DNA from: Rhodanobacteraceae bacterium
GTDB lineage: Bacteria; Pseudomonadota; Gammaproteobacteria; Xanthomonadales; Rhodanobacteraceae
Direction: 5' to 3'
Assembly (NCBI GenBank): GCA_016790075.1
Contig: JAEUPP010000024.1
Coordinates: 1-64,000 of the forward strand
Length of the DNA: 64,000 nucleotides
This document shows positions 41,338 through 58,934 of this stretch, in pieces. Position numbers and translations under genes: made by a program. The notes under the pieces are model-generated. The model was not told where the DNA came from, made no database searches, and worked only from the letters and a program-made list of their open reading frames with translations. Every line of letters starts with the position of its first letter. Positions within the stretch are counted from its first letter, which is position 1.

Positions 41338-42816
41338 ATGAACGCAAACACCACCCTCGCCCGCCGGCTGGCCACGCCCGACCAGGTGGAGGCGCTTAAC
41401 GCTGTCATGGCTCACGTGCCTGCCACGGACGCAGTGACCGATAAGGGACTTATCGCGAGCCTTAAGGCGCATGGCCAGCTCGCCCCGATTCTGCGGCGCG
41501 GCGGTCAGATCGTAGACGGGCGCCGGCGCATCGCAGCCCTGGGCCAACTCGGCGTCGAACCCTGGATCGTCGATCTCCACATGGACGCCGACGCCGGCAC
41601 GCGCATCGACCTCTTGGGCCGCTGCTTCTTCGAACTGAACGCCTGCCGTCGAGAGCTGAGCTTGGCCGTGCGTGCGGCCATCGCCGACGCGCTGGCCACT
41701 TTGAAGCGCGGCGACAACCAACATTCGGGAATCGGGATGAGCCGCGAGGAAGCTGCGGAAACGGCGGGAGTCAGCGCGGACACGCTCGACCGGTTCCGGA
41801 AGGTCAAAACAGATCCCGAGACGCACGCCAAAGTTATGGCGGGCACGCTTTCCCTTCCGCAAGGAGTTCGAGCCGTAGAGGCGCGGGCGGTGGCAGCCAA
41901 GGCGAAGCACGCGTCGCTCTCCGGCAACAGCCTTGAGTCCGATCTGGACCAACTCGCCGAGCAGTCGACCGTCTTCAACCTGCTCTACGCCGATCCGCCG
42001 TGGGACTACGATCGCGGTGAGCAAGCGGCCACGCACGTCACCGACCCGTCTCGCTACTACGCCACCATGCGGCTGGATGACATCAAATCCTTGCCGATCG
42101 CGCGCATCGCCGGCAGGGACGCCGTCCTGTGGCTCTGGGCACCGAGTTGCTACCTTGCGCGCGCCATCGAGGTAATGGCCGCATGGGGCTTCGAGTATGT
42201 AACCAGCGCGGTTTGGGTGAAAGGGCACGGCTCGCCGACGCCCGGTGCGATCCGGCCCGTCCACGAAACGCTCCTCATGGGGCGCCGAGGCAAGGGCCTG
42301 ATCACCGACGGCGCCCCCATGCTGAGCGCTCACGAGGATCGCCGGCGTTGCTACGCGCACTCACAGAAGCCCGCCCACTTCGCCCAAGAACTCGAACGGC
42401 TGTATCCGGACGCCGGGAAGCTCGAGCTGTTTTCGCGGCAGACGCGGCCGGGTTGGGTGGTGCTCGGAAACCAGACCGGGAGCATTCCGGTGATTTGTGA
42501 AGCCGCAAACGACGACAAGGCGGAAAGCGCGGAAGGTTCGGAGGGCGGCCAGAAAGACGCGGTAAAGCCGTCAGCGCGAAGCAAGAGCCCTCGGACCGCG
42601 CACAAGGCACGGCGTGGTGAACGCACGAAGCCGGAAGCTGCACCTCAATCCGCCGCACGCCCGGACGATCGAATGGCGGAGACGCCCGCCGTGCGGAACG
42701 ATGCGGCGCCCACAGAACCGGGTTCTTCCGAATTGACCGAGGCGGCCCAGCAGGAAAACGACGGATCCACCGCACGGGCGAAACAGTCCGCAGACCGCGG
42801 CAGAAAGCAGTCGTGA
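41338..42816 (+). CDS. ParB-like/MT-A70 adenine methyltransferase fusion
   Basis: A 492-aa protein. Residues about 15-80 are ParB/Srx-like (LIASLKAHGQLAPILRRGGQIVDGRRRIAAL), and an HTH-like segment follows at about 125-170 (GMSREEAAETAGVSADTLDRFRK). The MT-A70 domain has the N6-adenine catalytic motif DPPW in LLYADPPWDYDRG near residue 219, and VLWLWAPS. The last roughly 100 residues are a disordered Lys/Ala/Glu tail. Such fusions occur on phages and integrative elements, where they methylate DNA. No cognate endonuclease lies next to it. Confidence 0.8.
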   Translation: MNANTTLARRLATPDQVEALNAVMAHVPATDAVTDKGLIASLKAHGQLAPILRRGGQIVDGRRRIAALGQLGVEPWIVDLHMDADAGTRIDLLGRCFFELNACRRELSLAVRAAIADALATLKRGDNQHSGIGMSREEAAETAGVSADTLDRFRKVKTDPETHAKVMAGTLSLPQGVRAVEARAVAAKAKHASLSGNSLESDLDQLAEQSTVFNLLYADPPWDYDRGEQAATHVTDPSRYYATMRLDDIKSLPIARIAGRDAVLWLWAPSCYLARAIEVMAAWGFEYVTSAVWVKGHGSPTPGAIRPVHETLLMGRRGKGLITDGAPMLSAHEDRRRCYAHSQKPAHFAQELERLYPDAGKLELFSRQTRPGWVVLGNQTGSIPVICEAANDDKAESAEGSEGGQKDAVKPSARSKSPRTAHKARRGERTKPEAAPQSAARPDDRMAETPAVRNDAAPTEPGSSELTEAAQQENDGSTARAKQSADRGRKQS

Positions 42817-43354: not shown

Positions 43355-46300
43355 CTACCCGATGCGCTTCGCTACGCCACTAAGGCGTGCAACCACTGGC
43401 GCGACATGCACGCGGAGTACGGGCTTAGCATCGCATAGAACCCGCAAGAACCAGATCACCAGTTCCGCATCTTCCTTTGTCAGATCTCGCGAAATGCAGT
43501 GGGAAACATGAGCAGCTACAGCCTCGCACCATAGGCCATCGGAGTCCTCGACGCCGCATACTGCGATGCCTGATCGGAGGCGCAAGAACAGCGGTATGCC
43601 GTCACGACACTCGATCAGACGTCGCACGGCATCAGCGAAGAGCCTATGGCGGGAGCTGGCCGCAGCCAAAGACAGACGAGAAAGCAACAATTCCCAATAA
43701 CTCGAAGAGTCGTCAGCAGGATCGACGTCCGAAAGCGCCAGATCGTCAACAAAGGTCGTAATTCTTTCCAACTTTTCTGATGGAGGCGCCCACAGGCTAA
43801 TCAGGTGGGCCAACGCCAGGGCTCGCGTCTCTAAAGCAACACTCTTCTGATCAAGAAGATCATCGAGTTGTTTGACCATAAAATCAGGCAAAGCTGCTGC
43901 GGGCAGCCCTCCTTCAAGCGGACCAGGGAGTGCGCCGAAAACAATGTGGCATTGTGATTCAAGTGACCCCTCCTCCTCTCCGAACACCGAAGCGCCCAGG
44001 AAATCTGCCAACGCATCGCGATGACCGACCAAAGCCGCCCAGACCCGAGCCAAGAGCTCCTGTTTCAGCTGTCCCGACGAAAGCATGAAACCGGACCAGC
44101 GTGGTTCAACAGGGATGTCGGCAAGCGAAGCTACAGCGAACGTGGAGAAGAACTCATTCGCCCAACCGGAAAACTGGCCGAGATCAATATTCGTCCGCAA
44201 CACAACGCGCTCGACCAACGCCGCATGAGCGAATGTCGCCAAGCGTCGCCAGTAGACCGGTGCGTCATGCAGCGCGCCAGACACATGGGCCATCGCGTCC
44301 ACCATTCCGGCCAAGTGAACGGTCAGCGACAGCCGATCGCAATCCTCATGAACATACGACAAAAAAGCACTCAGCAGCTCGGCCACCACGTCTCGCAGGG
44401 CATCGGCGCAATCGGGCCGAGCTAGCAATCCTTGTATAAGCCCCGTTAGCGACCAGAGATCGATCGAGGGGAGCATTTCGCGGATCAGGTCTCGGAGCGC
44501 CAATTCGTCCATTTTGGCAATCGCAAGCAGCGGCACGGTAAGGCTATGTACCGACCAAAGCAGCTCATGCCGGACTTGAGCAGCTAGCTCGACGGCTGGC
44601 TCGCGTTGCCGCAAGGCTAGGACGTAATCCGGCAATGCCGTGTGTCCGTTGGCTGCAGGGACCAAGCGCTCGTAGTACCGCCGAGACAACGGGACCAAAT
44701 CGTATTGAGTCGCTTCTTTCGCGAGTGCGTCTTCAATATGGTTGGCGACACCGATCGGAGAATCCTCCAAGTCTTTGTCCAGCATCTCAAATCGGCTGTA
44801 GTGAACGGGGCCTTGACCAGCCTCCTCCAGCCACCCTTTAACTTCCTGCTCACCTATCCCGAACGATTGCGCCCGGTGGACAATGTATGCCTGTCGGCGC
44901 GCCGGGTCCGGATGCAATAGAGGCGCATGGTCAATCCCAAATGAGCGCTGTTCCGAGGAGTCGATGCATCGGACAGAGGCGTCTTCAGCAACTGCCACCG
45001 ACCAAGCAGTTCCTGCCTCATCATCAACCGACACGGGCTTCGCACTTTCATACGCAACTCCAACGACAGAAAACAGCCTATTCGCATCAAATCTCGGCGT
45101 TCCGGAAAGGTGGACAGTGATTCGATCGGCACTAGGAATCTTCAGCTCTTCCAGGAGCGCACGATCCGCAAAGACTCGATCGCGTAAGGATTTCGGCAAC
45201 TCGTTGACGAAATTCTGAGAAAAAGCCAAGACCGCTTGGCTCACTTGTTCCGAGGTCAATTGCAAGCTACCAGGCGAGTCGGAGCCTCGTTGGGGAACCA
45301 ACTTCAAGTTCTCGACCATCCTGACGTAGATCGTCTCAAACAGTGGTGGTTTAGAACGCGCCACAGGTAGAAGATACCGATCGAGCCATGCCATGTAAGC
45401 TCTGCGACGATGTGGCTTCATGGAGAAGGCACCAAACAACAATCGATTCGCGTTCATGGCATCAAGGTCCAGAAAGCGTGCCCTGTCCCACGGCGCAGGT
45501 GTCTCTCTGAGAAAACCCTCCAAACTCCCGAATTCAACGATCCAGTCGGCCCGCACGGCCGTCTCAATATCGTCAGCGTCATCGGACCAAAGTGTGGCGA
45601 GCGCCTGCTGGGCCTGCGTCCTAACGTCCATAAGCCACGGCAACTCGTCCGGAACAAGCGCCATCTGCGACGTCTGTGCCAGAAGGTAGCTTTCCCTCAA
45701 CGCTCGCAACGCCGGCGATTCGACCAGGGCTCCATCACGAACATTCGACGAGCGAAGCGCCGCCAAAATCTCCTCTTCGATCGCCGGTATGAAAAGGTAG
45801 CCCCCCCGTCGCAACTCTGTTCGTTTGCTCAACCAATCTTTGTCACTGAGCGCTTCCTCTGCCCTCAACCAGTTCAAAACGTCCAGGGTTGTTCTGATGG
45901 GAACCGACGTTCCGTCCGAGAAGACAAAATCCGAGAGCCTATTGGCGGCTCGATCGTCCACCACGATTGCCCCAACGCCGCTCTCACACTCTCCAAGTTG
46001 CGGCAACAGAAAGCGGGAATCGCTGTCGCTTTCGTCATCGGCTCCTCGCTTCGGCGCTCGCAGAAAAAGTACACGCCCTTGTTCCTGCCCATCGATCATA
46101 AACTGGCAAATCGCTTCGATGAGCGCTGTTAGGTGCCCAGTGCTCGCCTCAAACTCCCTCAACGACATGGCTTCCGCTACCACATCCGCATGCACAAATA
46201 GTCTGAACCCGCCATTCTTCAATGTTCTCCACAAGTTCAAACGCTGAAAGTGCGTGACAGTAATGTCGTCAAGATAGAGACAAGCTCCGAGCTCTATCGT

Positions 46301-49300
46301 CGAATCGTCGGGGAGTCCTTGGTCGCTGCGTGTGAGGTAGGAAAACGCCTGGTCCCGAACGTCATCACCTATCAGGCCGTGGTGATGAAGACTACGAACC
46401 AGCTCAACACAACTCCGGAACAATGGCTTCGCCGCACCGAGATCAGCTTTCTTGTCTCCTGTCAGGGATCCAATACGGTCTATTGGTCCGGGCCTAACCA
46501 CGTAGACATCGGGACGTGTTTCACGTTGTAGCTCTGCGACCCGCACCATCTGCGCGAGATCAGCCCCGACTTCTGCTTTCAGTCGAGCCGAACAAGTTCC
46601 CGACGCACTCACGACGTCAATATCATCCGCTGCCACTACAGCGAGCAGTTGCCCGGCCTCTCGAATTCTGCTCGGCTGATGAAACTTCACCTCGCCCAGC
46701 TCGTAGAACAACCACGCCCCTGTGGCGTGCGGGAGATGAATGCAATCGAAAATTTTGAGAACTTTAGGCAGCAGCCCCAATTGACCAAGGGTCAGAAGCG
46801 CTGTTTGGTCAAGCGCAATCTCACTCGGGCGCTGCATCGGCGTACGCGTTCCGCCGAAGAAAGCGCTGATGGGCGTCCGTCGTCTCGGCTCCCTCTGCCC
46901 CTTGTTTGCTTCGGCGGTACCTACCAACAGTGTGGACAGAGGCTGATTGACAGCCTCAGCAACCAAGCCCATGTAGAGTCGAGCCATCCGAATCCCGTCT
47001 GATAGCGCATCGGAGCGCTTGCGCCAACCAGGAATCATCTCCACCACGTCAGCGAGCGTCTTCTCCTGCATCGGCCCGCTCTCATCGGACAGAGCGATCG
47101 CCTTGCGCAACCACTCGCCGGGCTCCTCTTCTTCTTCCCACTGCCCGCGCGTCGCTTGCGTGTACGCGTTCAACAAAACCGTTGCCGCGCCGGGGGCAGC
47201 AATAGCCGCGGTCTTCGTCAGTCGTTTTGCTGTGTGCGTCCGACCGAGCGCCGTCGCCACCCGCGCAAACTGAAGCAATTGTTCCGGCGTATAGCCCAAC
47301 GTTTCCAGCACCGCTTCCAGCAGGCGATCCAGGCTGCCCCAATCCCCTGAGTACACAGCTAAATACATGCCGAGTTCGAGGCGACGTCGAGGGGAAAGGC
47401 GATCGCCGTACTTCCCAACGTGTCGCCTGGCATCCGTCCAGCGTCCTCGCTGGAAAAGTGCGTCAAGGTACATCTCGCTTAGCTTATCCGACTGCTGTAT
47501 CAAAATCGGATGAGAGTCGAGAAACTCAACCACGTCGCCCCACCTATTCTCATTAATAAGCAAGTGCAGAGCGGCAACTGCGTGCTCGCGATCCTTTGTC
47601 AGATCGAACAAGGAAATCGCATGCTCGATTGCTTCGGGTAGTTGCTGCGCCCTCACCAACGCCGCAACCAAGTTTTGCAGCGACGTCGGATCCTGCTCCT
47701 CTTCGGCAGCTTTTCGGAAGGCCGCCAACATCGACTCGTCTACGCCATCGGAAATTTCTAAAGTCAGTCGCGCCCGAATCGCGTCCGGGAGCTGCGTCGC
47801 CTTCGCCAGCTTCTCGACAGCTTCGGATCGTCGCCCCGAGAACACGAGCGCCTGAATCTCCAAGCTTTCCAGGAAGCTCGGATGTATGTACGGGCGTAGA
47901 TGGTCGCGAATTGATGGCAACTGTCGAGCACAGTCCGCTGGCGAGAGCCGGAGAAAGAGGGCGGCTCTGGCCCTAGCGTCGTTCGCCGTTAACCCTCCGT
48001 ACGTTAGGGCTCGCTGATCAATAGTCTTCGCCCACTCCTGCACATCGATTTCAAGACCAGCTGATAGCGCAAGTGGTATCCATTCGGCCCTTCCTTCCTC
48101 GCGCGTCCGATTCCATAACTGAGAAATTTCGGCTTTCGTCGCAACTACTGACGCTCGGTCATGCAGTCCCAACCACAGGCGGTAATCCAACGCCGCCGCC
48201 GCTGTATCGGGCAAGTCGTAGCGCGTTGCGGCATCGTGGAAACGTCCGAACATCTCTGCGGCACGGCGCCGCCAGACGAGTTCGTTCTCCCCATCAACCA
48301 AGGGCAACTCGTCCACGACAGGAGGTCCTTGAGACGCACGCTCACGCAGCAACGGAACCACGCTACAGGCCACGAGAACTTGAGCACCCACCCACCAAAG
48401 CGCGGGGCACACATCGAAGGCACTTTCCGCTACGCGGTCCAGCCATCGCAACGCGTCTTCGTGCTGTTGTTCGCCGAGAAGATCACCGAGTACCAGACAG
48501 TTTCCGTCTGGGTCAAGATCGCTGGGCGTTAACCCTGTCTCGGCGATCCATCGCAAAGCAGCGGACCGATCCTGGTTGCGCATGAGCGCGTAGCGGATAG
48601 TCTGCGAGAGTTCGCCGCGATACGCGCCGACCAATCGCCGGGCCGCCTCGATGTCCGTTCTTCCCAACAGCAGCGCTTCCACCATGCTCACGTGATCTTG
48701 CGGTGCTACTAGCTTCGCTTCTTCGACTAAAGCGGTAGCGAGCTCGGTGTCTTCATCGGCAAGCACTCGCGCGCACCAACTCATCACGAACGCGCGCAAC
48801 TCCTTGCCGCCGATCTGGCTTTTCCCACCAGCGCGAACATCGGCCGCCAAGTCGCGCGCCAGTGCAGTTGTCGTCGCTTCACCGAAGAAGCGTACGACCC
48901 GAAGTCGGCTCAGCCGAGTTTTCAGATCCGAATCCACCTGCTCAATTGGCGGGTTCTTCAGCAGCTCCTCTTGTTCGAGCAATTGCTGATATCGATTGTT
49001 CGGCACTCGCTGTGTCAGCGACTCAGCGATCAACTCTTGCAAGTCCGCCCAACATACTGAGCGGCTTTCTTGCGTTTTCTCGATGCTCTTCTCTATAACC
49101 GCCTTGATCACAGCAGGCACCAGCCTGCGCCCCTCGCTCCACTGAAGACCATGTTGTTCGTGACCTATCTGCGATAGTCTTTTCCCAAGAGCATCGAGAA
49201 TCTGCTGGGTATCGGGCTCGCGTGCTGCCCATGTGACTTTGGCGATCAGTTCCGATGAAGCCTCGGCATCAGACTTTTGCGCGAGAAATCTCTGTAGCCG

Positions 49301-49747
49301 CGATTTGTCAGTCGCAATGGCCCTTAGCACGTTGATGAGCGGAGCCGCTTGACGAGTGCCCTGTTGCACGTCACGCCAGTACGTGAGCCCTGCAAGTCCA
49401 TCCGGTCGATGCACCAGCTCTTTCTCTAGACCGATTCGGCTTGTTGTTCGGAAGACAAAGGTGAGGCTCTTGCTCGCGTTGCGCTCACGGAGGTCAAACA
49501 CGCGGTCGAGAAAGTCCAACACCGACAGCAGCGTTATCGAGGCTTCTTGATGTTTGAACTGGTGAACGTCGGTGCCATTTCTCTCACCAATTGCATAGTC
49601 TTCCGCGACCTCCACAAAGAGGGTTTCCGTCGGCGCCAGATGCGTCCAAGCGAGGGCAGTAGCAACATCCTGGTAGTAGTACCCATGCTTGCTTGCAACC
49701 GCCTCCGTTCCAGGAACGCCTTCCAGACGAGGATTCTGTTCGCTCAT
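43355..49747 (-). CDS. Giant nuclease-solenoid-PIN-like protein, candidate defence gene
   Basis: A 2130-aa cytoplasmic protein. I prefer the ATG at 49747 (GAAGGAAG ribosome-binding site) over 49765. Residues 1-130 look like a Cap4/DUF4297 restriction-type nuclease: GYYYQ at 22-26, then E46...D50 and QFK at 63-65, an E-D-QxK order. Residues about 300-950 are a helical TPR-like solenoid. Near 975 (LDQTALLTLGQLGLLPKVLKIFD) and near 1155 (ACLYLDDITVTHFQRLNLWRTL) are PIN-like segments. The remaining roughly 900 residues are helical and unrecognised. Lower GC than the flanks suggests transfer. A defence role is inferred. Confidence 0.75.
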   Translation of the reverse strand: MSEQNPRLEGVPGTEAVASKHGYYYQDVATALAWTHLAPTETLFVEVAEDYAIGERNGTDVHQFKHQEASITLLSVLDFLDRVFDLRERNASKSLTFVFRTTSRIGLEKELVHRPDGLAGLTYWRDVQQGTRQAAPLINVLRAIATDKSRLQRFLAQKSDAEASSELIAKVTWAAREPDTQQILDALGKRLSQIGHEQHGLQWSEGRRLVPAVIKAVIEKSIEKTQESRSVCWADLQELIAESLTQRVPNNRYQQLLEQEELLKNPPIEQVDSDLKTRLSRLRVVRFFGEATTTALARDLAADVRAGGKSQIGGKELRAFVMSWCARVLADEDTELATALVEEAKLVAPQDHVSMVEALLLGRTDIEAARRLVGAYRGELSQTIRYALMRNQDRSAALRWIAETGLTPSDLDPDGNCLVLGDLLGEQQHEDALRWLDRVAESAFDVCPALWWVGAQVLVACSVVPLLRERASQGPPVVDELPLVDGENELVWRRRAAEMFGRFHDAATRYDLPDTAAAALDYRLWLGLHDRASVVATKAEISQLWNRTREEGRAEWIPLALSAGLEIDVQEWAKTIDQRALTYGGLTANDARARAALFLRLSPADCARQLPSIRDHLRPYIHPSFLESLEIQALVFSGRRSEAVEKLAKATQLPDAIRARLTLEISDGVDESMLAAFRKAAEEEQDPTSLQNLVAALVRAQQLPEAIEHAISLFDLTKDREHAVAALHLLINENRWGDVVEFLDSHPILIQQSDKLSEMYLDALFQRGRWTDARRHVGKYGDRLSPRRRLELGMYLAVYSGDWGSLDRLLEAVLETLGYTPEQLLQFARVATALGRTHTAKRLTKTAAIAAPGAATVLLNAYTQATRGQWEEEEEPGEWLRKAIALSDESGPMQEKTLADVVEMIPGWRKRSDALSDGIRMARLYMGLVAEAVNQPLSTLLVGTAEANKGQREPRRRTPISAFFGGTRTPMQRPSEIALDQTALLTLGQLGLLPKVLKIFDCIHLPHATGAWLFYELGEVKFHQPSRIREAGQLLAVVAADDIDVVSASGTCSARLKAEVGADLAQMVRVAELQRETRPDVYVVRPGPIDRIGSLTGDKKADLGAAKPLFRSCVELVRSLHHHGLIGDDVRDQAFSYLTRSDQGLPDDSTIELGACLYLDDITVTHFQRLNLWRTLKNGGFRLFVHADVVAEAMSLREFEASTGHLTALIEAICQFMIDGQEQGRVLFLRAPKRGADDESDSDSRFLLPQLGECESGVGAIVVDDRAANRLSDFVFSDGTSVPIRTTLDVLNWLRAEEALSDKDWLSKRTELRRGGYLFIPAIEEEILAALRSSNVRDGALVESPALRALRESYLLAQTSQMALVPDELPWLMDVRTQAQQALATLWSDDADDIETAVRADWIVEFGSLEGFLRETPAPWDRARFLDLDAMNANRLLFGAFSMKPHRRRAYMAWLDRYLLPVARSKPPLFETIYVRMVENLKLVPQRGSDSPGSLQLTSEQVSQAVLAFSQNFVNELPKSLRDRVFADRALLEELKIPSADRITVHLSGTPRFDANRLFSVVGVAYESAKPVSVDDEAGTAWSVAVAEDASVRCIDSSEQRSFGIDHAPLLHPDPARRQAYIVHRAQSFGIGEQEVKGWLEEAGQGPVHYSRFEMLDKDLEDSPIGVANHIEDALAKEATQYDLVPLSRRYYERLVPAANGHTALPDYVLALRQREPAVELAAQVRHELLWSVHSLTVPLLAIAKMDELALRDLIREMLPSIDLWSLTGLIQGLLARPDCADALRDVVAELLSAFLSYVHEDCDRLSLTVHLAGMVDAMAHVSGALHDAPVYWRRLATFAHAALVERVVLRTNIDLGQFSGWANEFFSTFAVASLADIPVEPRWSGFMLSSGQLKQELLARVWAALVGHRDALADFLGASVFGEEEGSLESQCHIVFGALPGPLEGGLPAAALPDFMVKQLDDLLDQKSVALETRALALAHLISLWAPPSEKLERITTFVDDLALSDVDPADDSSSYWELLLSRLSLAAASSRHRLFADAVRRLIECRDGIPLFLRLRSGIAVCGVEDSDGLWCEAVAAHVSHCISRDLTKEDAELVIWFLRVLCDAKPVLRVHVAPVVARLSGVAKRIG

Positions 49748-49787
49748 GCTCGCTTCCTTCGCCATATCGTCGAGGCCTTGCGCAAGA

Positions 49788-49916
49788 TGGCTCTGTTCTC
49801 ACTTTAAGTTGGTCGGTGCCACGCCTCTGTAACCGCTATCTCTCGGACCGGAGAAACCCGAGGAATGTCAGAAAACTCGTTTTTCGAAATGCCAACTTGA
49901 AATGAGAACAGAGCCA
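49788..49916. mobile_element. 129-bp MITE-like element
   Basis: The ends are 25-bp terminal inverted repeats, starting TGGCTCTGTTCTCAC and matching at 23 of 25 positions. The 79-bp interior has no coding capacity. No clear target duplication is visible. It lies 41 bp upstream of the start of the 2130-aa gene and interrupts the IS3 orfA remnant on its right side, whose frame runs into the element and stops there. Confidence 0.65.
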
Positions 49917-50005
49917 CGCAGGAGCTCGTTCGCCTGTTGAAGCTCGCGCCCCTCGCGCCCTACTGCCGTCATGCGCTCCTGATCGCTCACCAGTCGCGCG
50001 CTCGT
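49917..50005 (-). pseudogene. IS3-family OrfA transposase remnant
   Basis: The minus-strand frame contains SDQERMTAVGREGRELQQANELLR, the leucine-zipper end of IS3 OrfA proteins, and is broken at 49916 by the MITE-like element. No OrfB or HTH part is recognisable. The remaining sequence up to 50187 has no feature I can name. Confidence 0.55.
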
Positions 50006-50187
50006 CTCGTCGTGCTCAGCGATATTGTAGTCAACGACGCATTTGTGCGCGTAGCCGATCTTAACGGCAATGAACCCATCGCTGACGTACACCAACCGAG
50101 CGGCGCGCTGACGCGCCCGCCTGAAGAAGATCGCCAAGTACGCTCTCAAGAGATGGCCTTCTGCTCGGGCAAGGCTGATCGTCACCG

Positions 50188-51198
50188 TCACAAATAGGTC
50201 TCGTCGATCATGCTCCCCAAATCCCCGACAACCCGCGCCGCTTCTCCGGGAAGGTAATCTTTGGCGCGGCGCCAATCATCGAGACCGATGGGCGGCTTCA
50301 CCGCTGTTGGCGTTACCCGCAGAACGCGTTCCGCGCCGATCAGCAATTTAGCTTGGCCCAAAGCGTTCTCGGATTGGAACGCCAGAGCGCCGTCGATCAC
50401 CGTGCGCCAGGTGAACAGACCGCCCCAACGCAGCATGCGTTCGGTGACGGTGTAGGGCTCGTCGCCGCAACCGAGACTCAAGATCCGGACGTTGTGGCGG
50501 TCCACGTCGAAGCAGGCCAGGGCATCAACCAGTCCAACCATGATGGGGTTGTTCGCCCACAGTCCACCGTCCACGAATCGGTAACCATTGGACTCCAGAG
50601 GCTTGAAGTAAGTCGGGGCAGCTGAGGTCGCGCACGCGACCGTCGTCATCAGCTCGTGCTGGTCCCTACGGTAGTCGGGATGATGCGGCGTCTTGAAAAC
50701 GTAAACCGTTCCGTGGCGCCCGTCGATGGATGGGATGCACAGGCGGCTTTGCGACGCCCCCAGCAGACGATCGCCGAACGTTTCAGAAACCAGCGCCGTG
50801 AGCGCGGCTCGATCGTAACGGTGCAGCGCGAAGTTACGCACGCAATCCCACCGACTCCGCTGCCGCCCCCACCAGTTGTCCGCGTACGGGGGGAAAATCT
50901 CGTTGCCGCGGTTGATGTAGAGATCCGCGATCTCGCGGGCCCGCATGCCACTGGCCAGCCCCAACGCCACGATTCCGCCTGTGGAGGTGCCAGTGATCAG
51001 ATCGAAGCAGCTGGCGATGCCTCCCCCGCCGAGATACCTATCCTCCAACTCGGCCAGCACGCTGGCGGGAAAAATTCCCTTAATGCCGCCGCCGTCGATC
51101 GACAAGATCCGGAACTCGCGGTCGCTCGGCCAGGGCTGCTGGACGCGCCGTTGTGTCAACGCGCCGGCGGATCGCGGCGGCGGGAGTTTTTCGCTCAC
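50188..51198 (-). CDS. capV: CBASS effector: patatin-like phospholipase
   Basis: A 336-aa lipase. The start is the GTG at 51198, which overlaps the E2 stop (GTGA). The oxyanion loop is SIDGGGIKG (33-41), the nucleophile S72 lies in GTSTGG, and the catalytic Asp is D210 in FVDGGLWANN. The C-terminal half contains the regulatory part (PYTVTERMLRWGGLFTW, SENALGQAKLLIG). In CBASS, CapV is switched on by the cyclic dinucleotide from the CD-NTase and degrades inner-membrane phospholipid, killing the infected cell. Last gene of the operon. Confidence 0.92.
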   Translation of the reverse strand: MSEKLPPPRSAGALTQRRVQQPWPSDREFRILSIDGGGIKGIFPASVLAELEDRYLGGGGIASCFDLITGTSTGGIVALGLASGMRAREIADLYINRGNEIFPPYADNWWGRQRSRWDCVRNFALHRYDRAALTALVSETFGDRLLGASQSRLCIPSIDGRHGTVYVFKTPHHPDYRRDQHELMTTVACATSAAPTYFKPLESNGYRFVDGGLWANNPIMVGLVDALACFDVDRHNVRILSLGCGDEPYTVTERMLRWGGLFTWRTVIDGALAFQSENALGQAKLLIGAERVLRVTPTAVKPPIGLDDWRRAKDYLPGEAARVVGDLGSMIDETYL

Positions 51199-51650
51199 GA
51201 CGTCGGCACTCCGTGGGCGCGGCCGCCGCCGGTCCACTCGCCCGTCGCCAACCACCCCTCGTAGCTGGTGAGCCAATCGATCGTCCAGGGCAGCGTGGTG
51301 TCGGCGATGGCCATCGAGCGGGTCCATTCGTGCGTTGCCGGATCGAACAGGCAAAGCGACGACCGGGTCGGGTCAGTCAGGTTCGGGTAGATGTGCGGAA
51401 CCAGCACGCCCGGCGCGCGTTCCGTTTGAAGCTCCAAGATCGGATCCATCAGCCAGACCTGAGGGAATCGGCAGGTTATCCGCATGTCGTCCAGCCAGTC
51501 TTTCAGCGTGAGGGCGACCTGGATGCGATAGGTCTTCGCCAGCGGGCGTAACCTGCCTTCCCAGACGACGTGCCAACCGCCGTCGAACCGGATTTCGAAG
51601 TCGGGATACCGCGCCCTCATTCGGCGCACCTGGTCGATCATGGAGAGCAT
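51195..51650 (-). CDS. CBASS stand-alone E2-like conjugating enzyme
   Basis: A 151-aa protein from the ATG at 51650, 8 bp after the cyclase stop. It has an E2/UBC-like order: a strand-rich first half, PHIYPNLTDPTRSSLCLFDP with the presumed active Cys C100, and a tail WTIDWLTSYEGWLATGEWTGGG typical of bacterial E2-like CBASS proteins. There is no E1 or JAB gene, so the system is the short type II form. In such systems the E2 becomes covalently linked to the cyclase C-terminal glycine and controls its activity. Confidence 0.87.
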   Translation of the reverse strand: MLSMIDQVRRMRARYPDFEIRFDGGWHVVWEGRLRPLAKTYRIQVALTLKDWLDDMRITCRFPQVWLMDPILELQTERAPGVLVPHIYPNLTDPTRSSLCLFDPATHEWTRSMAIADTTLPWTIDWLTSYEGWLATGEWTGGGRAHGVPTS

Positions 51651-51658
51651 CAGAGTAC

Positions 51659-52915
51659 CTAGCCTCCGAAGTAGGTATGTCGGGGCGTATCGCGGACCGC
51701 CGCCGCTACATTGGTCGAGAGAGCGATGGTGGCCGCCGCCGATCCAGGGATGCCGAAGCGGCCGCTGCCGGGAACGTGCTGAGACTGCCCCTGTACGATC
51801 GCCTGCCCCGCACGGCGGTTGAACGACCTGACGGCGTCCAAAGTGGGCCGCTCGCCGAACAGTTCGGACAGCAGCCGCTGCATGGTGGCGAGGTCGCAAT
51901 CACCGCCCAGCACCTCCAGTTTCGCGACGAGCGTTGTGAGATCGGCCACGAAAACGCCCTGGGCCTGCAGCGTGCCTGGCCAGCGGTCCGTGAATACGTC
52001 GCTGCCGCAAGCCGGGTTGCGTACTTCGACCAGCTCGCGATCGTGCTGTGCGCGCGAGAAGGCGGCCTTGAGCTGGCGCGCCTGATGCAGCAACTCCGCC
52101 GACAGCGTTCGGGTCTGGTTGGCGTTGTCCGCCACGAACTTCGCCAGTACAACCGCCGGCGGGCAACGGCCCTCGCGCTGGTCGTACTGCACGTTCCGCC
52201 AGCGCTTGAGGAGCTGCAGCGCGATAAGCGCCATCGACTTCTTGTGCGGCGGAACCTGATCCGGAACGGGCTCCACGTCTGCCTCGGCCAGCAGCAGGCT
52301 CGCCTCATAGTCTGCGGCGCGCGCCTCGTAAATCTTGGCGAACTCCAGTTCCACGGGCGTGCGCGCGTTGAACCACTGAGCGAACCCCCAGGGGTTAGCG
52401 ACGATCCGGCGATCGTCGGCAGTGGCCCACCGGTGCTTCGCGTGAAAGATGAAACCGCAGCGCTCATGCAGATTCAGCAGCCGCACCATGGGGGTCACGT
52501 CCAGATGCATCCCGTCTTTGTATCGAATCTGGATGCAACGGGTGCAACGCTCGGTCATGTCGTGGTAGCGGGATCCCGGCTCGCCGCGAATCGCCAACTC
52601 CAAAACGTCGAGCATTTCGTGCGGCAACGTGTCGGCAGGAAAGTCCAGTTGCGCGATCAGGTCGATGTCGAACTCGTCGCGTTCGAGCTTCGAAGCGATG
52701 GTTGCACCGATCGCCATGGAGCCTTGGGGGTAAAAGATCTCGACGCGCCCCTCCAGCGGACTGCCGGCACGTTCGATCCACTTGTTCACAGCGGCGTAGC
52801 GGTCAACCGCCAGCTTGTGGTTCGTTGCACTGAGTTGGACGCGGATCGCCACATCGGCGAGGAGGAAATCGATCGGCTCCGACAAAGGCAGCCGGACAGC
52901 AGAAAGCATGTTCAT
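51659..52915 (-). CDS. CBASS cyclic nucleotide synthase (CD-NTase, DncV-like)
   Basis: A 418-aa nucleotidyltransferase. The active site is GS at 65-66 (PQGSMAIG), D83 and D85 in EFDIDL, and a third Asp D139 in MHLDVTPM. The length and the KKSMALIALQLLKRWRN helix fit clade A DncV-like enzymes, which make cyclic dinucleotides such as cGAMP. It ends TYFGG: an exposed Gly-Gly tail suitable for linkage to the E2. First enzyme gene of the operon; an alternative ATG is at 52909. Confidence 0.93.
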   Translation of the reverse strand: MNMLSAVRLPLSEPIDFLLADVAIRVQLSATNHKLAVDRYAAVNKWIERAGSPLEGRVEIFYPQGSMAIGATIASKLERDEFDIDLIAQLDFPADTLPHEMLDVLELAIRGEPGSRYHDMTERCTRCIQIRYKDGMHLDVTPMVRLLNLHERCGFIFHAKHRWATADDRRIVANPWGFAQWFNARTPVELEFAKIYEARAADYEASLLLAEADVEPVPDQVPPHKKSMALIALQLLKRWRNVQYDQREGRCPPAVVLAKFVADNANQTRTLSAELLHQARQLKAAFSRAQHDRELVEVRNPACGSDVFTDRWPGTLQAQGVFVADLTTLVAKLEVLGGDCDLATMQRLLSELFGERPTLDAVRSFNRRAGQAIVQGQSQHVPGSGRFGIPGSAAATIALSTNVAAAVRDTPRHTYFGG

Positions 52916-53000
52916 AGGGTCCTCTATCGAAGCCTAGTTACGACGCCGCGGCCGATGAGAACCGCTTCCGGTCTCAACGGCTGCGACGCCTTCGTGGTGG

Positions 53001-53180
53001 TCACTTGGTCTTGGTGCGATCGACCAGCTTGTAGGTCGACCCCGGCTTGGGCGTCGGCGGCAACGGTTCGTTGCGGACAACGGTACGCTCCGGCCCCTTT
53101 CCGCCCCGCGGCCCCTGGATCTGGTACTGGCCCGAGGCCGGGGCCGTCTGGCCGGGCTTGAGTCCGCTCGTTTTGCTCAT
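53001..53180 (-). CDS. YjzC-like small protein preceding the CBASS genes
   Basis: A 59-aa protein starting at the ATG at 53180 after TAACGAGGAG. Its pattern KPGQTAPASGQYQIQGPRGGKGPERTVV, then LPPTPKPGSTYKLVD, matches the YjzC family of small, widely spread proteins with no firm function. It stands first in the CBASS transcription unit, 85 bp before the cyclase gene, so it would be expressed with the system. Whether it takes part in CBASS is unknown. Confidence 0.7.
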   Translation of the reverse strand: MSKTSGLKPGQTAPASGQYQIQGPRGGKGPERTVVRNEPLPPTPKPGSTYKLVDRTKTK

Positions 53181-53228
53181 GGTGAAACTCCTCGTTACAC
53201 ATCCAGGCAACAGCCTGGTTCAGAAAAA

Positions 53229-53244
53229 CCCGCCGGGCGGCGGG
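53229..53244 (-). terminator. CBASS leader terminator-like hairpin, proximal
   Basis: On the minus strand a CCCGCC/GGCGGG stem of 6 bp with a 4-nt loop is followed directly by TTTTT. It lies after the second repeat unit and before the YjzC-like start, so it would stop transcripts of the CBASS operon unless prevented. Confidence 0.6.
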
Positions 53245-53286
53245 GGCTCGTTACAACATCAGGCAACACCACTCATCTAAAAAAAA

Positions 53287-53299
53287 CGTCCACCGGACG
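53287..53299 (-). terminator. CBASS leader terminator-like hairpin, distal
   Basis: On the minus strand a CGTCC/GGACG stem with a 3-nt loop is followed by eight T. It lies after the first transcribed repeat unit. The stem is short, but the U-tract is strong. Confidence 0.55.
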
Positions 53300-53303
53300 G
53301 CCG

Positions 53304-53334
53304 TTCGTTACTGAATGGGGCAACAGACTATACT
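53304..53334. promoter_or_regulatory. Overlapping divergent -10 elements of capH and the CBASS operon
   Basis: Plus strand: TATACT at 53329-53334 would place the capH transcript start near 53341, with a TTCGTT -35 candidate inside repeat unit three. Minus strand: TATAGT at 53332-53327 would start the CBASS transcript near 53320, so that it begins with repeat unit three and meets both hairpins. A repressor bound at the unit would block both promoters. Confidence 0.5.
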
Positions 53335-53369
53335 CTGCGGCCTACACGTACAAGTGCGCGGGGTGCAGA

Positions 53370-53738
53370 GTGGATTTCGGACGTTTCATCGCGCAGCTCA
53401 GAGACGGAAAAGGCTTGAGTCTCAGAGAGTTAGAGAGGCGCGCGGCCGATCTCAACCACGTCTACATCTGGCGACTGGAGAAAGGGGATCGGGACGCCCC
53501 TTCCGAAACGACGGTCGACAAGCTCAGCAAAGCGCTGGAGCTGACGCCGCGCGAGCAGGAGATCCTGAGCCTGCTTTTGAAGACGGAGATCGACGACAAC
53601 CTGTTTGACTTGATGGTCGCGGACCCGCACATCCCCATCGAGGACATCGAGCCGGTCGCCACCATGAGTTTCCGAGGCAACCGGCCGACAGACCAGGCCG
53701 GATGGCGCAAACTGATCGACCTGGTGAAGTCGTTCTGA
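53370..53738 (+). CDS. capH: CapH-like HTH repressor of the CBASS operon
   Basis: A 122-aa protein with a GTG start at 53370. The XRE HTH is FIAQLRDGKGLSLRELERRAADLNHVYIWRLEKGD (residues 6-40). The C-terminal region (DDNLFDLMVADPHIPIEDIEPVATMSFRGN) could dimerise and hold the cleavage site. It is divergent from CBASS and 4 bp before a HEXXH protease gene, the arrangement of the known CapH-CapP modules, in which CapP cleaves CapH to derepress CBASS on DNA damage. Confidence 0.8.
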   Translation: MDFGRFIAQLRDGKGLSLRELERRAADLNHVYIWRLEKGDRDAPSETTVDKLSKALELTPREQEILSLLLKTEIDDNLFDLMVADPHIPIEDIEPVATMSFRGNRPTDQAGWRKLIDLVKSF

Positions 53739-53742
53739 TCCC

Positions 53743-54591
53743 GTGGATGAACTGACCGCCATCGGTCGTGCCAGACGGCTGGTCGCCGGGATCTCATCGG
53801 CTCCCGTTGACGCCTACGGGCTAGCTACCGCGCACGGCATGGAGGTCAAGGAAAGCGATCAACTTGGGGAAGGCGAAGCAGGAAACACCTTCCGCAAGGG
53901 GACGAAAACCATCATCGTCGTCAATAAGAACAACCATCCTTTCCGCCGACGGTTCACAGTGCTGCACGAGCTGGCCCACCATTTCCTCGAATTGCCGTCG
54001 AAACACGGCGCGTCGATCCCTTCCAGCGACCTCGAACGTTTCGTCGGCAGGCCCCCGGAAGAAAAAATGTGCGACGTCTTCGCTGCGGAGTGTTTGGTAC
54101 CCGCGCATCTTATCCGCCCTCTGACGGACTCACCTTTCTCGGTCAAAACCGTTCAGCGGCTCTCGGACGACTTTGAGGCGTCGCGCCCGTGCATCGCATC
54201 GAGCTTCGTCCGCTCCTGCCCGAATCCGATCGCCTATGTTTTTGCTGAGAACGGCCGGATATCGAACGTGCTCACCTCTGCCGCGCTGCGGGAGCACCGC
54301 GTCTTCATTCAAGACGGCAGGCTTCCTTCGAGTTCGGCAGCAGCCCGTGCCTTAGCGAACGACACCTCGTCGGAGAATGCCGAACTGGATGGCACGGATT
54401 GGAGTTCCAGCGATGCGGCGGATCAATTCGTTTGTACCGAGGAAGCCCTCCACCTGCGAGGCTGGAAGCAAACGCTCTCGTTTCTGACCTTCGAACGCGT
54501 GGGATCTGCACGGCACGAGGTCGCAGAACCGGACGAAAGCGAAGAACTGCTGCCCGAACTCACTGGGCATCTGCCGTGGCCGAAAAAGTGA
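53743..54591 (+). CDS. capP: CapP-like ImmA/IrrE zinc protease
   Basis: A 282-aa protein, GTG start at 53743. The metalloprotease motif is H75-E76-L-A-H79 in VLHELAHHFLE, with a downstream acidic ligand in DVFAAECLVP and the IrrE-type helix AHLIRPL. The C-terminal 130 residues are a less conserved sensor-like part ending in a strand-rich region. Its partner is the HTH protein encoded 4 bp upstream. Family knowledge (ImmA-ImmR, IrrE-DdrO, CapP-CapH) supports cleavage of that regulator. Confidence 0.85.
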   Translation: MDELTAIGRARRLVAGISSAPVDAYGLATAHGMEVKESDQLGEGEAGNTFRKGTKTIIVVNKNNHPFRRRFTVLHELAHHFLELPSKHGASIPSSDLERFVGRPPEEKMCDVFAAECLVPAHLIRPLTDSPFSVKTVQRLSDDFEASRPCIASSFVRSCPNPIAYVFAENGRISNVLTSAALREHRVFIQDGRLPSSSAAARALANDTSSENAELDGTDWSSSDAADQFVCTEEALHLRGWKQTLSFLTFERVGSARHEVAEPDESEELLPELTGHLPWPKK

Positions 54592-54700
54592 TCCCGCCAC
54601 CGGCTCGAACCGCACGCGAGATCAGAGTTCGGCCCGGCTTACCTTCCAACAAGCTGCCACTAATTGGCAGCCTGCTCCGACGAACGCCGAAGGAGTAGGA

Positions 54701-54722
54701 GCCTGCCGCTGCAGCGGCAGGC
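54701..54722. repeat. 22-bp perfect palindrome, also found at 17534-17555
   Basis: Each arm is GCCTGCCGCTG. The identical 22-mer occurs inside the 3' end of a glycosyltransferase gene (17534-17555), and a near copy lies inside umuC (22986-23009). Here it stands in the 288-bp spacer after capP and may act as terminator. Recurrence suggests a REP-type sequence. Confidence 0.55.
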
Positions 54723-54879
54723 CCTCCCGCGGCCTATCGACTCCCTGATAAAGGGTTTAAATCGAACGAGCAGTCCAGATCGAGGGCATACGGTCTTCAA
54801 AAAGCTGATCTCACGTCTCGCAGCAAGGCTGCCCTACTGCGCTCATCAAGCTGTACCTTTTCACCAAGCGAGAATTGCT

Positions 54880-56187
54880 ATGGCTAGGGCCTTCGGATTC
54901 GAACTGCTGGATACAAAGCTAGGCGCCATCTTTCAGCTAAGCGCTCCGGCAACGGAAACGAGAACCTTCCGATTCGAAAACTGGAAAGCTGAACTCCGCG
55001 AAGGCGTTCCTTTCATTTGTGTGCGCGGAGAAACGCCAAGCACGTCCAGCCGCGAAAATATCGTTCGGCAAACACACGAGGTCGCGGAGAACGCCTTGGA
55101 TATCCTCGCCGTCGAGGACCGACAGGCCCTAATTATCCAGAACCCTATGGATGGAGTCGTTTGGCGCGTTGGCGAGCACGGCCTCAAGATCGATCTATCG
55201 ACCAGCATTGTTTTCGCCACCGCCGGACTTCCGCTCAAACTCGTGGTCCGCGATGCAGCTGGCAATGTGCTGCCCGATATTCAATACACACCACCGGCCT
55301 ACAACAACGCTTTTCGCTACTTTCGATACTCTCAGGCCGCCAGTAACGTATTCGATGCCTACCGGAATATGTTTCTGGCACTGGAATGCCTGCTCGATCA
55401 CATCGATGGCAAACAGCACGGCGACAACGAGACCGGGTGGCTCGGCCGAGCCCTTACCTCCGCTGTTCAACAACACGGATGTGATCTCGCACCATTCTCC
55501 AAGTCCACAGCAACAGACCCAGTTCAAAGCTTTCTGGATTCACACTACTCGGCGGTCCGATGCGCGTTGTTCCATTCGAAGAGCAGTGTTTCCAACTCGC
55601 TTAGGCCAGGTAGCCTTGACAGCCGAGAACAAGTTCTCCATCAGCTACTCCTAGTGCAAGGGCTTGTCGAACACATCTTAAAATCCATGGCTGGTGTTCG
55701 TCTCACGACCAGCGGTTTCACACACTCAGGCTTTGGTCACTTCCTGGAGAAGCTGGCGCCCCACACGCATCTACTCGTCGCCTCGACCACCTGCCCAACG
55801 ATAGAACAGATACTTCAGCGAACAGGCGAATCAGGTGGCGGTTCCGAGCATGAAGCCGAGTACGACGAATTCAATTCCGACACCGGAGCCATTCAAAAAG
55901 TGACGTTCGACGGTCTTAGACCCGGTACAACTGATGAATGGACGTTCGTTGCGGAGTTTAAACGCTCCGATCTTGCGCTCACACACATCGGCACACTTCG
56001 GTTGGCGTCTCACGTAGACCGGAGTGCGATGGGCGCAGAGGCCATGTTCGTGGTACCGATGATGGAGAAAATGAGCGGGACGCTCCACACCACGGATCTG
56101 GACATCGACGGTGCGAACAAGCTCATCATTCGGGTGCGCTGCGTACTCAGGAACGAGCGATCGCAACGACGAGACTTTACTTCCTAG
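54880..56187 (+). CDS. HEPN-motif protein next to CBASS
   Basis: A 435-aa soluble protein from the ATG at 54880. Residues about 1-155 form a beta-rich part (FRFENWKAELREGVPFICVRG). Residues about 165-270 are helical with FDAYRNMFLALECLLDHI and the R-x4-H motif R227-CALF-H232, the RNase signature of HEPN domains. A last beta-rich part follows (TDEWTFVAEFKRSDLALTHIGTLRL). ApeA-like HEPN defence proteins have a similar order of parts, but direct homology is not certain. Preceded by the capHP pair; own promoter likely. Confidence 0.6.
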   Translation: MARAFGFELLDTKLGAIFQLSAPATETRTFRFENWKAELREGVPFICVRGETPSTSSRENIVRQTHEVAENALDILAVEDRQALIIQNPMDGVVWRVGEHGLKIDLSTSIVFATAGLPLKLVVRDAAGNVLPDIQYTPPAYNNAFRYFRYSQAASNVFDAYRNMFLALECLLDHIDGKQHGDNETGWLGRALTSAVQQHGCDLAPFSKSTATDPVQSFLDSHYSAVRCALFHSKSSVSNSLRPGSLDSREQVLHQLLLVQGLVEHILKSMAGVRLTTSGFTHSGFGHFLEKLAPHTHLLVASTTCPTIEQILQRTGESGGGSEHEAEYDEFNSDTGAIQKVTFDGLRPGTTDEWTFVAEFKRSDLALTHIGTLRLASHVDRSAMGAEAMFVVPMMEKMSGTLHTTDLDIDGANKLIIRVRCVLRNERSQRRDFTS

Positions 56188-57416: not shown

Positions 57417-58171
57417 ATGAAAAATTTTTTGAAGCGCAACAGTGAGATGATCGGATGGATCTCGGGCATTGGTATTCCCGCTGCTTTGATCATTACCGGA
57501 TACCTTGCGGTTGGCTCTGTTGAGAGTTCCAAGCTCGACTCGGAGTATGTTAAAATAGCACTAAGTATACTTTTCGCGAACCCATCTAAAAAAACGACAG
57601 CCAGATGTCCGGCGGTAGCCTAGAGCAGAAAGACGAAGATATCGAGTTGAAATCGATTGAAAAGAAAGATCAAGCTTTAAGAAGGTGGGCGGTACGCCTT
57701 TTGAATGATAAATCGCCCGAGAAGTTTTCTACTGAAGAACAAGAGGCATTGCTGTTGCCTTCGCCTGCTGTGGCTGCGCGATTCGAATCTTTAGCCGATG
57801 GTGGTAACTCAAGAAAACCAGAGAATCCAGTTGCGCTAAACCAGACAATTGTAGCTAACGCATCTAAGTCAGAATCACCTGCGCCTATCCCCTTGAATAT
57901 TGTGATGCCGAATTCTTTGAGCTTTTCGAGCACGCTGTTACGCGTGTCGGTGATCGAAGTTCCGCCAATCGAATTCGTCGAGCTAAGAAAATCGAACGGA
58001 GGGCAGGTCGCAAAAGGTGAGATTATGACGCTGTCGGATCTTCAAAATATTTTCGCTATAGACAGAACAAAAGGCGGTGGTGGCACCGCAGTGTTCTTGT
58101 ATGAGGTCATCGACCCTCTAGGCCGGAAAGATAGCGCCACAGTCAATATTGTCCTCAATCCGGACCGATAG
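57417..58171 (+). pseudogene. Membrane-anchored hypothetical protein split at an A7 run
   Basis: The first frame (57417-57623, after TTGAGGAGCATCA) encodes a membrane segment (ISGIGIPAALIITGYLAVG) and YVKIALSILFANPSKK. At seven A (57588-57594) the homologous continuation moves to the -1 frame: NDSQMSGGSLEQKDED, then LRRWAVRLLNDKSPEKFSTEEQEALL and a beta-rich C-terminal domain. A bypassed stop separates the frames. The joined protein would be about 250 aa. It may be a mutation, a sequencing slip or a slippery site. GC content is lower than that of the flanks. Confidence 0.55.
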
Positions 58172-58589: not shown

Positions 58590-58934
58590 ATGGATCAAGA
58601 ATGCTGGGGAGACGAGTTAATGGAGCTTGAAGACGCGCTGATCGAGCTTGAAGCTAAATTGGGGATCGAAGCGCCTTTCGGCGCCGACGAAATCCCGCCG
58701 CCTCGGCGCTTTGCGGCGGTACTGATTGCTATCCGAGACAAGACCTGCCCTGCCTATGAGAAGATCAAGGCGATGGTCAAGAGCGATGAAGCGGATCTGG
58801 GCGTCCAGATCGGCAACATAATTATTGCCGCGTTTGATCTCAGCACCGCAGCAGCAATGACGATTGCGCGCTCGATCGTGATGATCGGTATGAAACGGTT
58901 TTGCGCGACGCCTACGGCGGTCGTCCAGCGGTGA
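58590..58934 (+). CDS. Small helical partner of the HEXXH peptidase
   Basis: A 114-aa protein (MDQECWGDELMELEDAL). The first half is acidic and coiled (ELEAKLGIEAPFGADEIPPPRR), the second more hydrophobic (DLGVQIGNIIIAAFDLSTAAAMTIA). Its stop TGA overlaps the next start as TGATG, so translation is coupled. No family recognised; the arrangement resembles regulator-peptidase or toxin-antitoxin pairs. Confidence 0.6.
   Translation: MDQECWGDELMELEDALIELEAKLGIEAPFGADEIPPPRRFAAVLIAIRDKTCPAYEKIKAMVKSDEADLGVQIGNIIIAAFDLSTAAAMTIARSIVMIGMKRFCATPTAVVQR

Follow-up and report, generated by a model that had tools for sequence, protein, structure and literature searches.

A giant gene beside CBASS in a Rhodanobacteraceae bacterium combines a predicted DUF4297/Cap4-type nuclease head with a double-PIN body of the TPR-GreA/B-C-PIN kind

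In a computational study, Kaur et al. (2021; PMC8195603) predicted a conflict system whose core (TPR, GreA/B-C and PIN) stays constant, with 1 of 13 N-terminal effectors in place of EAD10; the system would act at RNA polymerase. According to its main text, the effectors include REase, HNH, PNPase and trypsin, and the system occurs mostly as standalone genes. DS-3 of DefensePredictor is described in its account (PMC13092281) as a PIN-containing single-protein system whose defence is abolished by mutation of catalytic residues. Here we describe a giant gene at positions 43355-49765 on the minus strand of a 64,000-nucleotide stretch of DNA from a Rhodanobacteraceae bacterium (contig JAEUPP010000024.1 of assembly GCA_016790075.1; this whole stretch is called the window). 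Judged by sequence, the body of its product belongs with the TPR-GreA/B-C-PIN conflict system, its N-terminus is a predicted nuclease, and its most likely role is single-gene defence. The original prediction, made from the DNA letters alone, could not match the protein to a named system, a statement now superseded by the relation of the body to the systems described in PMC8195603. Its reading of the domains as Cap4-like nuclease, solenoid and PIN-like was right.

The gene is real and intact and its distribution is patchy, because the ORF (open reading frame) is a long stop-free one (2136 codons vs. a longest stop-free run of 325 codons in 200 shuffles of the same bases), near-full-length homologues exist (37% identity, in two further genomes of the same family) and the gene is spread across few genomes. 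The original prediction had recognized a single large ORF starting at 49747 (2130 codons) and of lower GC, and both points hold: the ORF extends over 43355-49765 on the minus strand with 2136 codons, at 57.2% GC, whereas 2-kb windows of the first 20 kb have 65-75%. The window gave no Rfam match at the gathering threshold, and a promoter scan of 49600-50400 gave no sigma-70-like match; one terminator-like site lies upstream of the gene, as many as in shuffles. The gene and the parts of its product are as follows:

43355..49765, minus strand: whole gene (2136 codons, stop included; 2130 from the ATG at 49747; homologues known)
48956..49747, minus strand: head, predicted DUF4297/Cap4-type PD-(D/E)xK nuclease domain (residues 7-270 of 2136)
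49553..49612, minus strand: predicted nuclease active site (E46, D50 and Q63-x-K65 in 2130 numbering, equal to 52, 56 and 69-71 of 2136)
47111..48943, minus strand: helical solenoid, TPR-like (residues 275-885; sub-threshold TPR matches, conserved in body alignments)
46850..47056, minus strand: HTH upstream of the double PIN (residues 904-972; PF24407 at 45 bits, cut-off 27)
46436..46819, minus strand: PIN1 (residues 983 to about 1110; PF20698 first third, below cut-off; invariant D986)
45734..46288, minus strand: PIN2 (residues 1160-1344; invariant D1270-D1271-R1272, R1319 and E1332)
44885..45247, minus strand: putative permuted GreA/B-C region (residues 1507-1627; leave-out profile match)
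43358..44884, minus strand: C-terminal helical region (residues 1628-2136; in split members a separate downstream gene together with the GreA/B-C region)

By its predicted fold, the N-terminal ∼265-residue head is a DUF4297/Cap4-type PD-(D/E)xK nuclease. An AlphaFold2 (AF2) model of residues 1-284 (2130 numbering), built with five sequences (pLDDT 77.5, pTM 0.69), contains a helix at 14-35, strands at 42-45, 50-55 and 58-65, a helix at 74-89 and a strand at 95-101, and places E46, D50 and Q63-x-K65 at what we take to be the catalytic positions of a PD-(D/E)xK enzyme. In a Foldseek search of this model against PDB, all 20 chains matched at E ≤ 0.001 were HerA-DUF4297, Hachiman, Lamassu LmuA/LmuAB or CBASS Cap4 (E-values of 2.1e-7 for 9c1m, 3.2e-7 for 8zue, 1e-6 for LmuA and 9.7e-6 for Cap4). 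Since their query-normalised TM-scores were 0.42-0.54, the match is at family level and none of these chains is a close copy. A profile of seven heads also found the DUF4297 nucleases among PDB sequences (8xav at 7.8e-4 and 9c1m at 1.8e-3), with the motif GYxYQ...E..ED...QxK in register. A PD-(D/E)xK-like head with E46, D50 and Q63-F-K65 had been proposed in the original prediction, together with the possibility that the N-terminus would turn out to have no nuclease fold; the helix-strand-strand-strand-helix-strand core is present in the predicted structure, the 20 PDB matches are of one nuclease family, and the residues were found at the claimed positions (2130 numbering). In a census of 15 such heads, E46 and D50 were kept in all 15 and K65 in 10, with R in the remaining five; the window head keeps the full E46/D50/QxK signature.

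The body was compared across 21 relatives, the window included (18 with a double PIN and three with a single PIN). Two fragments (L027, 253 residues; L028, 703 residues), a locus with no body ORF past the threshold (L029), one with two broken ORFs (L045) and several second copies of one place were left out of this set. PF24407 (HTH_upstream_double_PIN) was found in all 18 double-PIN rows, among them the window. For the GreA/B-C region 19 rows were scanned, L036 and L050 being left out (region absent or short) and six split members being entered by their second gene; PF24388 (Permuted GreAB-C) matched 11 of the 19 at E ≤ 1, with a best value of 2.6e-15. When a profile of the other 18 rows was cut to this part, it found window residues 1507-1627 at 70.3 bits, and a profile of 16 rows, with the two closest removed, still found 1512-1626 at 45.5 bits. 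The original prediction spoke of about 900 more uncharacterised helical residues; these include a probable homologue of permuted GreA/B-C at 1507-1627. In six loci (L004, L043, L044 and L046 of Rhizobiaceae, L005 of Methylophaga, and L048) the body is encoded by two adjacent genes, which overlap by 4 bases in L004 and 8 bases in L005 as annotated. The split falls near window residue 1500, just ahead of the GreA/B-C region, so that the C-terminal ∼640 residues are a separable module. A sequence search of solved structures with residues 885-1725 returned chains of ankyrin and DARPin at the HTH, aligned over ∼40-90 positions and with 3.8e-4 as the best value; we took these as chance repeat matches.

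We examined the PIN pair by profile, by conservation and by structure prediction. PF20698, the PIN of the TPR-GreAB-C-PIN system, matched 15 of 18 double-PIN rows at E ≤ 1 (window, E 1.9e-5) and exceeded its cut-off in L005 (46.8 bits). Within 880-1479, the charged residues invariant in all 21 bodies are D986, D1270, D1271, R1272, R1319 and E1332; the acids among them are thus only D986 in the first strand of PIN1 and D1270, D1271 and E1332 in PIN2. An AF2 model of 885-1725 from 13 rows (pLDDT 75.4, pTM 0.60) shows strand-helix patterns compatible with two tandem PINs, with pLDDT below 50 in its stretch 354-393, which contains D1270/D1271. The earlier proposal of two PIN-like segments is accordingly supported by sequence (PF24407 above and PF20698 below cut-off), whereas structural confirmation was not obtained.

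The split pattern of invariant acids led us to a tentative and rather doubtful idea: the two PINs may have degenerated complementarily, leaving one ribonuclease site to which PIN1 contributes its first half (D986) and PIN2 its second half (D1270, D1271 and E1332), the two being nested round a PIN-like insert. The protein would then be a two-nuclease machine, with a composite RNase on a transcription-factor-like domain deciding the release of an exchangeable DNA nuclease. The first-strand Asp of PIN2 (D1166, the equivalent of D986) is kept in 11 of 18 double-PIN rows, and no acid is invariant in the second half of PIN1. We ran a profile from the three single-PIN relatives on the 18 double-PIN rows. 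Seventeen of the 18 matched its N-terminal part at about 980-1030; the match was strong in L006, L007, L011, L049 and L051 (independent E 1.5e-8 to 4.2e-14) and weak in the other 12 (E 0.002 to 0.48; window 0.19). All 18 matched all or some of its C-terminal part on the PIN2 side (weakest in L030, E 0.011), and L048 alone, at minus 3.9 bits, had the N-terminal part on the first half of PIN2. Several points count against a composite site. The single-PIN and double-PIN rows come from one alignment, and PF20698 covers the PIN2-equivalent segment unbroken, below cut-off in L004 and above it in L005. Because D1166 is present in the window's group, PIN2 may work alone there; PIN1 may likewise keep a role of its own, because position 1108 in its second half (the 1105-1108 stretch) is nearly invariant, with D or E in 16 of the 17 rows that have a letter.

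Conservation of the PIN acids also bears on which nuclease does the work. The PIN pair could be the real effector (RNA cutting with a toxin-like shut-off), the exchangeable head being a regulator, a targeting part or a second-stage fail-safe. All 21 bodies keep D986, D1270 and D1271 while the heads vary, two rows have just a short N-terminus with no recognised head, and five of 15 heads have lost the catalytic lysine. DS-3, for which the account in PMC13092281 ties defence to catalytic residues, is a PIN-containing precedent. We nevertheless consider this explanation unlikely: the active site of the window head is intact, and the heads recognised by Pfam are mostly effector enzymes or death-like domains that occupy the effector position of the system as described in the main text of PMC8195603.

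The heads of the relatives argue for an exchangeable effector. Head labels came from Pfam scans for 16 of the 21 bodies, several of them without a match; L011, L043, L044 and L046 were labelled from a similar relative that had been scanned, L049 by eye once its scan had given no match, L005 by eye (a TM label), and L050 as none solely from its short, unscanned N-terminus. Seven of the 16 scanned heads were above the curated cut-off, in six families: caspase (L007), DUF676 esterase (L004), HNH (L047), trypsin (L036), PNP (L024) and bDLD3 (bacterial death-like domain 3; L025 and L026). Mrr was found below threshold in L006 and L051, and the Pfam scans gave no head match in the window, L005, L049, L023 and L048. 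On a body tree, midpoint-rooted for drawing only, the sisters L047 (HNH) and L048 (no recognised head) have bodies 61% identical, and L007 (caspase) groups with the Mrr-like L006/L011 at 54-55% identity. The head labels require 11 changes for 12 labels, the minimum possible, so that heads have been exchanged at depth and not constantly.

The same type of head also occurs on other proteins. Twelve of the 15 Cap4-type heads sit on proteins without a double-PIN body, and eight of these 12 have a P-loop pattern, some of the scanned ORFs ending at the edge of the fetched stretch. In a tblastn search of plasmids, the head part alone was matched in the records of bodiless head proteins, and two genomes of the family (G009 and G519) have the head with no body match. 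The twelve loci with a DUF4297-type head and no double-PIN body (L003, L008-L010, L052-L058 and L063) include four of the five R variants. We suggest that the head is an effector module because varied heads stand on related bodies and the same head on other proteins; judged from these sequences, the two-way exchange is the strongest evidence for it.

We think it likely that the window protein serves immunity (conflict) from a single gene, as a double-PIN form of the TPR-GreA/B-C-PIN kind in which a transcription-linked sensor body would release a DNA nuclease in an abortive-type response. A defence role is supported by the nuclease head, the body families, the effector-like heads, the patchy presence and the CBASS alongside. 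We infer the following order of events. The conserved body (solenoid, HTH, two PINs and permuted GreA/B-C) would sense infection; following Kaur et al., the GreA/B-C region might dock near RNA polymerase and the PIN pair might cut or probe transcripts. Upon activation the N-terminal DUF4297/Cap4-type nuclease would be released or oligomerised, and its cutting of DNA would stop phage replication or kill the infected cell.

A number of observations weigh against this assignment. Pfam Cap4_nuclease (PF14130) had no match in the window's own head and was weak in three of the seven head rows scanned (best E 0.012), L030 and L035 being among the seven. One of the five heads with R for the catalytic K (L030) sits on a double-PIN body. 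TPR matches were sub-threshold only, in the window and in relatives, and of the TPR-like solenoid in the original prediction it is the conserved helical solenoid that stands. PF24388 had no direct match in the window's own stretch, and PF20698 reached 25.3 bits there, below its curated cut-off of 27.8. Searched against PDB and viral structures, the AF2 model of 885-1725 returned no match at E ≤ 0.001, a result that says little on the PINs because helical parts dominate this region. Head types are clustered on the body tree and exchange is infrequent, the three Cap4-type rows forming one fully supported group. PADLOC has no model for the window protein, and among ten neighbour proteins of relatives (one of them, beside L010, adjoins a head-bearing protein without the double-PIN body) eight had no PADLOC match; the two that matched were a type IIG enzyme in the surroundings of L011 and an E1-E2-like protein close to L007.

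The original prediction also placed the gene next to CBASS, which was borne out by PADLOC and Pfam matches to cyclase, E2-like and phospholipase proteins. The CBASS span (50188-54591) comprises the following:

50188..51132, minus strand: CBASS patatin-like phospholipase effector (PF01734 at 102.4 bits; PADLOC phospholipase effector at 2.1e-110)
51198..51650, minus strand: CBASS E2-like protein (PADLOC E2 at 1.7e-40)
51659..52915, minus strand: CBASS nucleotide cyclase (PF18144; PADLOC cyclase at 8.8e-156)
53370..54591, plus strand: CapH-like HTH and CapP-like peptidase, two genes (PADLOC capH at 5.8e-8 and capP at 2.9e-39)

CBASS lies directly upstream of the giant gene on the same strand, and the CapH/CapP-like regulators are divergent. 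This arrangement, with a gap of 422 bases between the phospholipase gene and the giant gene downstream, and the Cap4 type of the head would fit a role as an additional effector of this CBASS that, like Cap4, is activated by the cyclic nucleotide of the system. We regard this as very improbable. A Pfam scan of the whole window protein gave no SAVED match at E ≤ 10 (SAVED has a model in Pfam), an effector and regulators are already present in the CBASS, and the two closest homologues (L030 and L035) have a different gene pair upstream. An effector of CBASS only was rejected on the missing SAVED match and these other neighbours. The CBASS probably adjoins the gene without being its partner, because in the two closest homologues another conserved pair takes its place (L030:13558-15837 and L035:4010-6270). 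The pair encodes a 488/491-residue protein (45% identity between the two loci) and a winged-helix protein (43%). The carbon-nitrogen-hydrolase family PF00795 scores weakly in one copy of the former (18.1 bits against a cut-off of 23.2) and has no match in the other, and blastp at 1e-8 found no homologue of either protein among window ORFs of at least 100 residues. The upstream pair is possibly made up of accessory genes of the system. In L005 (2860-8446, on a Methylophaga plasmid), four genes stand directly before the body gene, one of them long, coiled-coil and SMC-like by eye; for the three tested genes of this group PADLOC gave no match at 1e-5.

Integrase and KfrA-type genes are located near both closest homologues. 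In the window itself, three genes stand in a row on one strand (window 61696-63983, minus strand, continuing past the window end at L065 1904-6453), encoding proteins of 236 residues (no Pfam match at 0.01), 845 residues (Integrase_2, PF13009, 202.6 bits) and 671 residues (Phage_integrase, PF00589, 38.6 bits). Judged from these matches, the two integrase-type genes and the third in the row fit the idea of a Gmt-associated region put forward in the original prediction, which is plausible. Other genes in the window include 41338-42816 (plus strand), for an MT-A70 methyltransferase (PF05063) with an N-terminal half that is ParB-like by eye and a long polar tail. The low-GC-region genes at 54664-56184, 57605-58168 and 58901-60127 (plus strand) had no Pfam match above cut-off; the product of the last reads by eye like a metallopeptidase (HEYGH motif).

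Given the integrase-type genes near the window copy and near two homologues, and the wide sequence divergence, the product might instead have no part in defence and be a large protein for regulation or repair that mobile elements carry. The effector-type heads, the patchy presence and the CBASS neighbour speak against such a role, as do the solved relatives of the nuclease head, which are anti-phage proteins, and we give it very little credence. A full-length match to a known non-defence family had been raised as a possible outcome in the original prediction; Pfam, PADLOC and NCBIfam returned none. A housekeeping family was rejected, as these three collections gave no full-length match; the one NCBIfam line stood at E 6.1, far below cut-off.

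We estimated the distribution with the body profile at E ≤ 1e-10, counting the window's own genome each time and some partial matches. It matched 4 of 233 family genomes, 6 of 369 in a class sample and 8 of 398 in a phylum sample, and none of the seven other genomes of the same genus. Head-only searches matched 5 of 233 family genomes and 1 of 398 phylum-sample genomes (the window's own). A scan of genome contigs with A4 found no relative and one with A5 found four Rhizobiales loci. A tblastn search against 50,697 phage records gave no match and three pattern scans of viral contigs found no relative; a phage origin was rejected on these results.

In the open-licence literature searched, a part of the whole literature, no experimental test of the TPR-GreA/B-C-PIN class was found. 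The window copy is a good test case: it is one intact gene, its head can be assayed from known relatives, and its residues are separable, so that E46/D50/K65, D986 and D1270/D1271 can each be used to ask which of the nucleases is responsible. Should the idea about GreA/B-C prove true, this would be an immune sensor that reads transcription directly, and several heads on one body would make it a bacterial parallel to modular immune receptors, with no recognised ATPase switch.

The predicted head resembles HerA-DUF4297, CBASS Cap4, Hachiman and Lamassu LmuA in its fold and E/D/QxK signature; unlike in those nucleases, it forms a single chain with a giant double-PIN body. CBASS Cap4 carries a C-terminal SAVED ligand domain, for which the window protein has no match. 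The P-loop head proteins (L003, L008, L009, L052, L053, L055, L057 and L063) share a homologous N-terminal head on a large protein, and differ by the P-loop pattern and the lack of the double-PIN body; AAA was above cut-off in L008, the sole one scanned. DS-3 is likened to the window protein by description alone, and the passages on it in PMC13092281 mention no nuclease head. The closest described system is TPR-GreA/B-C-PIN, in which a variable N-terminal effector stands over a constant body of repeats, GreA/B-C and PIN (PMC8195603); the window protein fits it in the variable head on a constant body, in the PIN type, putatively in the repeats and a GreA/B-C-type region, and in several head types. 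The window body has two PINs and an upstream HTH, whereas the text on the archetype has a single PIN, placed C-terminally; the window PINs precede the GreA/B-C region, which appears to be Pfam's permuted form, unlike the system as described. Because two PINs stand before GreA/B-C, the window protein is a variant and not a plain member. The words DUF4297 and Cap4 do not appear in the main text of PMC8195603, and such a head could fall within its 'REase'. The names PIN-TPR-GreABC, HTH_upst_double_PIN and permuted GreAB-C, or the accessions, occur in no paper of the open-licence literature searched; since Pfam had already named PF24407, its curators had noticed the double-PIN form. New here are the predicted Cap4-type head on such a body, the account of the double-PIN form and the split pattern of its invariant acids.

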